A stretch of DNA of 56,872 nt from Deltaproteobacteria bacterium (GTDB taxonomy: Bacteria > Desulfobacterota > Syntrophia > Syntrophales > JAIPED01), in contig JAIPED010000003.1 in the NCBI GenBank assembly GCA_021737325.1, forward strand, positions 1-56,872, read 5' to 3'. Position 1 is the first letter of the stretch. Every line of letters starts with the position of its first letter. A program made the translations under genes and the position numbers. The notes under the pieces were generated by a model. It was not told where the DNA came from. It made no database searches and saw only the letters and a list, made by a program, of their open reading frames with translations. Shown piece after piece: positions 16,717 to 20,503 of this stretch.

Positions 16717-17937
16717 ATGGAGGAGCAATTGTATCTCGTAAAACCTGCCGAGCCGTATTGGACGGCAATGCGTCTGATTGCTCATAGGGAACACATCATC
16801 GTTCCCTATGATTCCGAAGGCGCCATGTTCATTGGTGAAATTCCTATAGTCGCTTCTTGTGCCAGCAACATTGAGCCATTGCTGGATGGTCGCCGTGTTG
16901 CGATTATCCGTGAAAAGGGGATCATGATTAGGGCACAAAACAAAAAAATGGCGGGACTGCTCCAGAGCGTGGCTTGCTTTTCTTGCGTGGTAAGGTTTCT
17001 GGTTGATGCGGTAAAACAGCCGCAAAAGGGGTACGCCTCCCATGCGGAGTTCCGCAATCTATTTGCTGGCCTCACCGCCAAGCATCAGGAGGTGGGTGCT
17101 CTCAAGAAGGGGACATTCACCAAAACGGAGATAGCGCGGGAGGCGATGGTTGAAGCGGGGAAAGAGGTTGTTCGCCTAGGTTTGGTCAACGCTTCCTTTG
17201 GGAATATCTCCTATGTCATTGGAGAAACCCTGCTTATCAGCGCTACGGGGAGTTTTTTGGATGACCTAGATAATTCGCTCGTTGCGGTTCCGTTGCTTCA
17301 AAGTAGCCCCCAGGATAAAAGTGCTTCTAGCGAGTTACCCGCGCATCGCAAAATTCTGTTGTTACAAGGGTTGCGGGCTGTCTTACACGGACACCCCCTC
17401 TTTACCGTGGTGGCATCGCTTATTGCTGACTCAGAGAGGATAAACGGCGTGCCGGTGGTTCAGGGGGAAACGGGCGGCGGAAAACGGGGATTGGACAAGG
17501 TTTTGCCACAAGCCTTGCAGAAAAGCCCTATCGCCATTGTTCAAGGGCATGGAGTTTTTTGTGTTGATGGGACCGATTATCGTCAGCCAATAAAGAGGAT
17601 GTTGCAGTTGGAAGAGGACTGCATGCGCGAATATAGCGATGCGTTGGAAGGGAAAATTGTGCACGGGATGAAAGTGAATAATGTTGTGCCCAATGGGGAT
17701 AAGAAGCGCCCCCAACATCCGATGCCCGATTTTGTTAGGCGTTCATTGATCGACAGCGGTTTGTTAGCCGCATATCAAGCCCGTCCACCATATCAGCGGA
17801 ACGACTATATCGGTTGGATAAACAGAGCAAAGCTGCAAAAGACCAAAGAAAAACGGCTCCTCCAGATGCTGGAAGAACTAGCAAAGGGCGGCGTTTATAT
17901 GAATATGGCGCATCCCCCATCCAACAGGGGAAAATAG
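16717..17937 (+). CDS. Class II aldolase/adducin-domain protein with extra N-terminal region
   Basis: 406 residues. Residues about 140-330 form a class II aldolase/adducin fold (NASFGNISY at 158-166, acidic E206, HGH at 224-226, H278 in VQGHGVF), the usual metal ligands of fuculose-phosphate aldolase-type enzymes. Family members act on sugar phosphates or in methionine salvage; the substrate cannot be read here. Residues 1-130 form a separate region (YDSEGAMFIGEIPI) that I do not recognise, and the C-terminal 70 residues are basic. Ribosome site GGGGGATAGGGG. It may be co-transcribed with ftsY (21-base gap). Confidence 0.75.
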   Translation: MEEQLYLVKPAEPYWTAMRLIAHREHIIVPYDSEGAMFIGEIPIVASCASNIEPLLDGRRVAIIREKGIMIRAQNKKMAGLLQSVACFSCVVRFLVDAVKQPQKGYASHAEFRNLFAGLTAKHQEVGALKKGTFTKTEIAREAMVEAGKEVVRLGLVNASFGNISYVIGETLLISATGSFLDDLDNSLVAVPLLQSSPQDKSASSELPAHRKILLLQGLRAVLHGHPLFTVVASLIADSERINGVPVVQGETGGGKRGLDKVLPQALQKSPIAIVQGHGVFCVDGTDYRQPIKRMLQLEEDCMREYSDALEGKIVHGMKVNNVVPNGDKKRPQHPMPDFVRRSLIDSGLLAAYQARPPYQRNDYIGWINRAKLQKTKEKRLLQMLEELAKGGVYMNMAHPPSNRGK

Positions 17938-18299: not shown

Positions 18300-18524
18300 T
18301 TAAGGAAGAGGATAAACACCCTCAACTGTTACCTTGCCCTGCAAGGCGATGATAACCGCTTCTTCGCTATCCGCAGAAAATTTGAGGCAAACGCCACAAT
18401 CGGAGCTAAGTTGTCGTGGCACGGGGATTATTTTATAATTTAATCCCTTTTCTACGAGGATCTTTTCGGCACATAAAACATGATAGATGGATTCGAAAAT
18501 CGCCACCTTCTGTTTTTCTTCCAT
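18300..18524 (-). CDS. Putative Se/S carrier-like protein (DUF3343)
   Basis: 74 residues from the ATG at 18524, preceded by GGGAGGAGAAGG. The sequence shows a FESIYHVLCAEKIL opening, then IIPVPRQLSSDCGVCLKF, matching the DUF3343 family proposed as Se/S carriers in organisms that use selenium. The conserved cysteine lies in SSDCG. An alternative ATG at 18572 would extend it by 16 residues and overlap the alanine racemase stop. Either way it follows alr closely and is probably co-transcribed. The Sec-containing selD in the same window supports a selenium connection. Confidence 0.75.
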   Translation of the reverse strand: MEEKQKVAIFESIYHVLCAEKILVEKGLNYKIIPVPRQLSSDCGVCLKFSADSEEAVIIALQGKVTVEGVYPLP

Positions 18525-18565
18525 GCCACCTTCTCCTCCCTTATCGTTGGAGAGTTTAATTGGTG

Positions 18566-20503
18566 CTACCATGTAAATGTTATCCCGCTGTTAGGAAAGA
18601 CCCATTCAGAAATTGCCACCTCAATCCGTTTGCCTTCTTGATGGTTAACATTTGGATAGAGGCTTTTACCCGCAAAAAAGCAAACCTCCTTAGGGTTAGT
18701 GATATCCGTTTGTGAATAATCAAAAGTAACTTCCACGCCGCGGGTGGGATATACCAGAAACACCGAAAAGGTGTTCGCATCTTTGCGCTTGCGGGTGATA
18801 ATCTCCAACGCCAGGCGTGTCTGCTTTGGTGGCTGAACTTCAGCCACTTGACACCAAACCTCCAAGCCACGAGAGTTTTTTTTGACACTCGTAACTAGCG
18901 CTTCTTGTCCCCCCACCCTCGCTCGCGTTAAGCGAAAATCTTGCGGGGTAATTTCCCCTTGGGGTTGATCCAGCAACCAGCGATATTCGCAGGATTTTTC
19001 TTGGAAGAGCGCTTTTAGTTGTTCGGAGTTTTGCGCACATCCGACCATGAACCGACTGCCGGAGAAGGATTTTTGGTATTCAATCTTTATGGTAACCTTG
19101 TAGAAATTTTTTAACGAAGCGTTATTCACTAGCTCCGCCTTGCCAAATTCGCTAAGCTTTATGCGATAGCGGAGATTTTCCCGCAGTTCTAGCGGCGTAT
19201 CATCCCTACCGAAAAGCATCTCCAAGACTTCGGAATAGATTGCATCACCAACCTCAACACTTTTTGTTCGCACTTGCAGACTTTGGCGGATAATCTTGCT
19301 GATACGCGAGAGGGATTTTTCTTCGTCGGGAATGAACATGCGTCTTAAGCGGGGTTCCACGCTGGCAGTTTTGCCGTTTTTGACAAAAATTCTTGGGGCG
19401 CGTTTACCCAGCGAACAAAGGATTTCGTAGCCAATAGTTCGGGCGTGGCGGGCGATCTCCTCGGCATCAATGGATGCTCTTCCCTGGGAGCCGAGCAAAA
19501 CCACCTCATCGCCAACAGCACACTGAGGCAGGCGGGAAACATCAATTGTACACATATCCATCGAGATACGACCAACCAAAGGGCACCTCCTGCCCTGCAC
19601 CAAAACCTCCCCACAGTTCGATAGTAGCCTAGGCAAGCCATCCGCATAGCCCACGGGAATAGTGGCGATGGTCGTTTTTTTCTTCGTGATGAAGGTCCTA
19701 CCGTAGCCAATGCTACTTCCCGCAGGGAATGCTTTTAGCAAAATGATGAGCGTTTTAAACGAAAGAACCGGTTGGAGTTTTACTTTTCCCTTAAGCGATT
19801 CATCGGGATAAACTCCATAGCTCATAAGACCAGGACGCACTAAATTGAGAGAAAAATTGGGAAAGTTAAGAATCGCGCCGCTGTTGGCGATGTGTTTTAG
19901 GGGGATAATGATGCCCTCTTTTTCAAGAGCGTAAACCAGCTCGTTAAAAAGGCGGAATTGCTCCTCGTTGCAGGCATCCGGCGTTTCACTAACGGCAAGA
20001 TGGGTGAAAATGCCTTCAATAAAAACATTAGGCAGGGCGGCGATTTTTTTAATCACCTTCAAGCCTTCTTGGCACATAATTCCGCCTCTGCCCATACCCG
20101 TATCAACCTCAATATGGAGTGGCAGAATGCTCTGGCTTTTTTTCCCCCTGCGGGAAAGCTCCTGCGCGAAGGAGAACAGCGAGACCGAAGGGATAAGAGA
20201 GTGGAGCTGAATTTCAGGAATCTCCCCTTCGTCCGAAGGGCTGAGGATAACTATGGGGGCGGAAATCCCCCCTATCCGTAACTGCGCCCCTTCGTCGGCG
20301 TTGGCAACACCAAGCATTGTTGCGCCGCAAGATAACGCATTGCTGGCAATTTCCACCGCTCCATGCCCGTAGGCATCGGCTTTTACCACCTGCAAAATAT
20401 TGGCACGCCCATTGATGAGCTTTTTAATTTGATGAAAATTATGCCGAAAAGCGCCCAGATTAACTTCCGTCCAACTACGGTAGGGCTTCGTGGTGGTTAG
20501 CAA
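18566..20503 (-). CDS. alr: Alanine racemase with unassigned C-terminal extension
   Basis: Residues 10-371 are a complete PLP alanine racemase that makes D-alanine for peptidoglycan: K41 in VVKADAYGHG (PLP lysine), THLA around 167-170, and the catalytic tyrosine Y267 in GYGRT, followed by a C-terminal beta domain with GRISMDMCTIDVS. Family members end near here (about 370 residues). This frame continues to 645 with a probable linker (about 372-435) and two beta-rich blocks (about 440-515 and 520-645) ending in an EWVFPNSGITFTW motif. I do not recognise the extension. The start is TTG at 20503 with AAGGAG about 10 bases upstream. There is no signal peptide, so it is cytoplasmic. Confidence 0.88.
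   Translation of the reverse strand: MLTTTKPYRSWTEVNLGAFRHNFHQIKKLINGRANILQVVKADAYGHGAVEIASNALSCGATMLGVANADEGAQLRIGGISAPIVILSPSDEGEIPEIQLHSLIPSVSLFSFAQELSRRGKKSQSILPLHIEVDTGMGRGGIMCQEGLKVIKKIAALPNVFIEGIFTHLAVSETPDACNEEQFRLFNELVYALEKEGIIIPLKHIANSGAILNFPNFSLNLVRPGLMSYGVYPDESLKGKVKLQPVLSFKTLIILLKAFPAGSSIGYGRTFITKKKTTIATIPVGYADGLPRLLSNCGEVLVQGRRCPLVGRISMDMCTIDVSRLPQCAVGDEVVLLGSQGRASIDAEEIARHARTIGYEILCSLGKRAPRIFVKNGKTASVEPRLRRMFIPDEEKSLSRISKIIRQSLQVRTKSVEVGDAIYSEVLEMLFGRDDTPLELRENLRYRIKLSEFGKAELVNNASLKNFYKVTIKIEYQKSFSGSRFMVGCAQNSEQLKALFQEKSCEYRWLLDQPQGEITPQDFRLTRARVGGQEALVTSVKKNSRGLEVWCQVAEVQPPKQTRLALEIITRKRKDANTFSVFLVYPTRGVEVTFDYSQTDITNPKEVCFFAGKSLYPNVNHQEGKRIEVAISEWVFPNSGITFTW

Follow-up and report, generated by a model that had tools for sequence, protein, structure and literature searches.

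A conserved extra domain of the alanine racemase of Syntrophales, probably for docking to a partner or for regulation

The racemase gene and its extension

Alanine racemase is a textbook enzyme of cell-wall synthesis and a drug target, and its usual size is about 360-390 residues. In the window, the whole stretch of 56,872 nucleotides analysed here, a gene at 18566..20503 on the minus strand codes for 645 amino acids, an alanine racemase followed by a C-terminal module, as judged by Pfam, TIGR00492 and order-wide homologues. The gene starts with TTG, and an AAGGAG sequence lies about 9 bases 5' of this start. A sequence-only reading of this DNA had described a frame running to residue 645, and this is borne out, since there is one frame of 645 codons holding a canonical racemase and about 260 further residues. 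The interval 18566-19390 named in that reading is indeed the DNA of the tail, but the gene lies on the minus strand. Upstream of the racemase, a gene for a solute-binding protein is transcribed divergently. The next gene (18300..18572, minus strand) codes for a 90-aa Se_S_carrier protein (PF11823). Its first 7 bases overlap the end of the racemase gene, which suggests coupled translation; it neighbours the racemase in the window genome only, and we do not count it among the parts of the system. Elsewhere in the window, a 406-aa frame at 16717-17937 (plus strand) combines Aldolase_II (143-302) and OmdA (347-391) domains in a single protein.

The racemase proper (residues 1 to about 385; 19350..20503, minus strand) was recognised by Pfam, TIGR00492 and structural matching. 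It comprises Ala_racemase_N (residues 14-233) and Ala_racemase_C (residues 246-372), and the frame scores 358.1 bits against the NCBIfam model TIGR00492, whose cut-off is 168. Residues K41, R139, H168, N207, R223, Y267, M315 and D316 are the same in all 70 aligned proteins; we take K41 to be the PLP lysine and Y267 the catalytic tyrosine. The alignment shows that the active-site residues of alanine racemase are intact, and the protein is predicted to act in L-Ala/D-Ala racemisation, as a racemase that carries an added module. The racemase had been thought complete by residue 371, but structural alignment moves its end to about 385-388. The best racemase structures align with the full-length model up to these residues, the best of them being 4luy_A (Z 42.5, 376 residues aligned, rmsd 2.6), which leaves a true extension of about 260 residues from near residue 385 onwards.

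Racemase modules within longer polypeptides are also seen in MurF-Alr (NF008897), where the partner is an N-terminal MurF ligase, and in VanT (NF033131/NF033132), where it is a membrane domain. In contrast, the part added here is C-terminal and unrelated, and the whole-protein cut-offs of these families are not reached. For example, the window protein scores 319.6 bits against NF008897, with a cut-off of 804, and the racemase part alone is aligned.

The extension opens with a conserved joint (residues 383-406; 19286..19357, minus strand), which leads into the first helix and has the nearly invariant consensus EPRLRRIFIPDEEKSIxRIDNIIR. It is marked by its conservation and by low model confidence, with pLDDT below 50 at residues 380-401 of the full-length model. 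The joint may itself be a binding motif. A helical hairpin follows (residues 392-413 and 416-431; 19211..19330, minus strand), assigned by DSSP on the models and carrying the invariant residues A421, I422, E425, L430, F431 and G432. The rest (residues about 437-645; 18569..19195, minus strand) is predicted by the tail model, Foldseek and VIA to be a two-lobed beta unit with a fold like the N-terminal domain of M1 aminopeptidases. Two beta-rich blocks had been proposed earlier and are present in the tail model, but the two-helix hairpin and the conserved linker that precede them had been missed. No membrane span is expected in the tail, where hydropathy over 19 residues peaks at 0.69.

Distribution and descent of the extended racemase

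With the tail as a 274-aa query, 132 of the 149 genomes searched from the window's order gave a match, and a 17-row profile of the tail detected it in 139 of 155 genomes of Syntrophales, an order of anaerobic syntrophic bacteria to which all 155 genomes of the class belong. Among order genomes with at least 90% completeness and at most 5% contamination, the profile found the tail in 90 of 92. The fusion described in the sequence-only reading is therefore real, but what was presented as a single case is an order-wide architecture. Tail and racemase share one frame across 53 genera from independent assemblies, and the uncut tail-bearing genes have open frames from about 645 to 780 codons. The window assembly is fragmented (72 contigs), as might be expected if a sequencing or assembly error had joined two genes, but an identical in-frame fusion in so many independent assemblies leaves this explanation with practically no probability. 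Sequencing error, frameshift or chance fusion, the first of which had been named at the outset as what would undo the observation, is excluded by the 53 genera in frame together with the many tail positions (44 of 274) that do not vary.

The 16 order genomes without a tail match have no racemase match (9 genomes), a weak or short one only (G140, G133, G078 and G109), or one that ends by model position 320 (G098, G125 and G112, at positions 301 to 320). In G098 and G125, the contig ends where the racemase match stops, and in G131 a full racemase is followed by 41 residues of the tail before the contig ends. None of the 155 order genomes holds a racemase that is complete to the C-terminus of the model and lacks the tail. 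Racemases over the cut-off number one per genome among those listed, with fragments of one gene counted once.

At the level of the phylum, a search of 395 genomes gave 16 tail matches, all of them in Syntrophales, and 20 of the 379 non-matching genomes were listed individually. A racemase model search took in 297 genomes of the phylum, 286 of them outside Syntrophales; among the matches listed, racemase frames there have 329 to 493 codons and the roughly 260-residue tail is absent. One candidate for another fusion outside the order (G389, 729 codons) was rejected: the frame owes its length to read-through of an overlapping gene upstream, and the racemase in it has a normal end. Phyla other than the window's were covered only by a scan of genome contigs with two short peptide patterns, which distant stand-alone homologues could escape. 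The relatives it returned (the best 80 of 102) include Syntrophaceae, Smithella and Syntrophus, which are Syntrophales in the NCBI taxonomy.

Conservation was measured in an alignment of 70 full-length proteins, namely the window protein and those of 69 of 80 loci, with 11 loci left out for truncation, runs of N, a missing start motif or because they were not selected. Mean pairwise identity is 0.676 in the racemase, 0.610 in the tail, and 0.737 in residues 372-437, which hold the joint and the helices. In the tail, 44 of 274 positions are invariant, and the charged or aromatic residues of CEYR, YPTRG and W-F-P-x-S-G are invariant or nearly so. Pairwise distances in the tail follow those in the racemase (r = 0.876, with 0 of 2000 permutations as high), which fits one fusion and vertical descent. 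These comparisons show the tail to be conserved nearly as strongly as the enzyme and to have a history in common with it. The fusion is order-wide and apparently had a single origin in Syntrophales, and the architecture and distribution of the tailed racemase can be considered solid.

A single vertical fusion, always attached and with the tail never seen alone, is also what would be expected of a purely structural module that stabilises the racemase or further oligomerises it, for example into a tetramer, with no partner or ligand. However, racemases outside Syntrophales manage without the tail, and its polar loop residues are conserved beyond what a stabiliser should presumably need. This explanation is unlikely.

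Relatives and predicted fold of the tail

After residue 372, the protein has no credible match in Pfam or NCBIfam, and nothing credible was found for the tail in PHROGs. Scattered weak Pfam matches were judged to be chance (C2_C2CD3_N in 4 of 76 members, with a best E of 0.024, and six more in a single member each). PDB sequences gave no credible match to the tail, with one at E 1.7. No tail match was found in plasmids, phages or viral contigs, and a mobile origin of the tail is therefore rejected. Stand-alone homologues, which the sequence-only reading had proposed to look for, did not appear credibly in 60 order genomes; at E <= 1, the matches were linked to a racemase or were pieces at contig ends, and one stand-alone match at E 0.17 was judged to be chance. 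That reading had also held that no known racemase extension fits, and indeed no racemase subfamily with this tail is found in Pfam or NCBIfam. Among the papers listed for racemases with an extra domain or in Syntrophus, the titles and the first parts of the abstracts do not describe it, and a literature search on M1/ribophorin listed no papers. As far as sequence comparison tells, the tail is an undescribed domain, unmatched here in Pfam and conserved on the racemase of the order.

Structure prediction and a fold search, both proposed earlier, gave a predicted two-lobed beta unit like the M1 N-terminal domain. The tail was modelled from an alignment of 76 rows (the window and 75 of 80 loci) with pLDDT 81.3 and pTM 0.76. 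In this model, residues 1-24 have low confidence, helices follow at 23-42 and 45-60, and the remainder is mostly beta strands. Foldseek found 116 matches in the PDB at E <= 0.001 (best E 1.6e-5), and the best 50 of the 116 are M1-type peptidases, leukotriene A4 hydrolase and one receptor complex with aminopeptidase N. A viral structure library likewise gave an M1-like aminopeptidase first (E 1.1e-5). By VIA-align, the tail model matched 3kd4_A with Z 11.5 (159 aligned, rmsd 3.3), 4g2a with Z 11.4 (174 aligned, rmsd 4.1), oligosaccharyltransferase chains of the ribophorin I type with Z of about 10-11, and M1 enzymes with Z 9.5 to 10. Models without a clear match give Z 7 to 8, so the fold match stands out, for a predicted model. 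The full-length model has pLDDT 80.8 and pTM 0.58, and the latter value means that the placement of the tail relative to the enzyme is not fixed by the model. In these models, a nearly invariant joint carries the tail as a unit of its own.

The predicted two-lobed fold thus recurs in ribophorin I, in DUF3857 proteins and in the N-terminal domain of M1 aminopeptidases (PF17900), with Z from 9.5 to 11.5, rmsd 3.1-4.1 and about 145-174 residues aligned. As a sequence profile, PF17900 does not match the window protein at E <= 1, nor any of 76 members at E <= 0.1. In hhalign, the tail has no similarity to M1_N (8 of 20 loci) and a probability of 0.2% over 5 columns with DUF3857 (PF12969; 10 of 15 loci), by a method that barely links M1_N with DUF3857 itself (4.3%). 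None of the sequence tests used here relates the tail to the M1 peptidases. M1 aminopeptidases carry a zinc peptidase domain beside the beta domain, whereas the tail is joined to a racemase. The zinc peptidase motif that accompanies the M1 N-terminal domain, HExxH, is absent from all 645 residues, and Pfam finds no peptidase or second catalytic family.

M1 N-terminal-type beta units are non-catalytic and pack against neighbouring domains. The sequence-only reading had offered a sensor, a protein-interaction module or a ligand-binding module, and the predicted fold favours a non-catalytic docking or scaffold unit rather than settling among the three. One could consider an allosteric sensor, in which a small molecule (amino acid, nucleotide or muropeptide precursor) would bind the beta unit and throttle D-alanine synthesis by a signal relayed through the joint. 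The near-invariant charged and aromatic residues of the tail speak for this, as does a joint that is conserved yet of low confidence in the model, as expected if it becomes ordered on binding. However, no known ligand-binding family was matched, and we know of no sensor among the fold matches, which makes such a role somewhat doubtful.

Gene neighbours and a proposed docking role

Gene neighbours, another check proposed earlier, were surveyed in 80 loci, with the start of the racemase set 1100 bases ahead of the tail. Of 72 loci with at least 700 bases upstream of the racemase, 43 have a homologue of a CHASE2-cyclase (query L095) that ends there within 600 bases of it; of 72 loci with at least 1200 bases downstream, 49 have a ddl homologue within 1.5 kb on that side. 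Both are present in 28 of the 64 loci with both flanks, and neither in 13. Both are absent beside the window gene, and the window genome has two ddl genes over the cut-off, both on other contigs. The query gene itself (L095:2611-4863) encodes a class III cyclase with a fused CHASE2 sensor. In many Syntrophales loci, for example L048:6845-9830 and L095:6873-9030, the racemase is followed downstream by two ddl-type ligase genes, which are about 45% identical to each other.

The upstream gene, with CHASE2 and a class III cyclase-like part, could mean that the tail senses cyclic nucleotides made by its product, tying the supply of cell-wall precursors to an outside signal. However, the cyclase is missing in 29 of 72 loci, the window has another upstream neighbour, and Pfam matched no cyclic-nucleotide-binding family, so this link is highly improbable. 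The tail is retained whichever genes flank it, suggesting a role in the racemase itself.

The extra domain of the Syntrophales racemase probably serves to dock the enzyme to a partner or to regulate it. Regarding its function, we infer that the tail is a protein-docking module that couples the supply of D-alanine to a partner, with a probability of roughly 40%. In the ancestor of Syntrophales, the single racemase of an essential pathway would have been fused once to a lineage-specific C-terminal module, whose parts are a flexible but conserved joint, a hairpin of two helices and a two-lobed beta unit of the M1 N-terminal type. This non-catalytic docking domain would keep the racemase dimer against a partner that uses D-alanine, most likely D-Ala-D-Ala ligase or another cytoplasmic enzyme of peptidoglycan precursors, and D-alanine would pass to its user instead of escaping into the cell pool.

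Docking is suggested by a strongly conserved tail in 139 of 155 order genomes whose distances track those of the racemase, by a fold that resembles non-catalytic units with no second catalytic family and no HExxH, and by the ddl genes close downstream in 49 of 72 loci. The other 23 loci have no ddl nearby, and the window genome has its ddl genes on other contigs and yet keeps the tail, so any partnership would be independent of gene order. Counting against docking, the fold match comes from a predicted structure only, and hhalign gives no kinship with M1_N or DUF3857.

With this domain, which would have arisen as a new one in the ancestor of Syntrophales, the racemase may, as a tentative proposal, be the hub of a cytoplasmic D-alanine complex with D-Ala-D-Ala ligase or a Mur ligase, or else a regulated D-alanine gate. 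The order's one version of the racemase, with its added 260-residue domain, is a clean marker of Syntrophales. It also offers a direct handle on how D-alanine is channelled or regulated after its synthesis.
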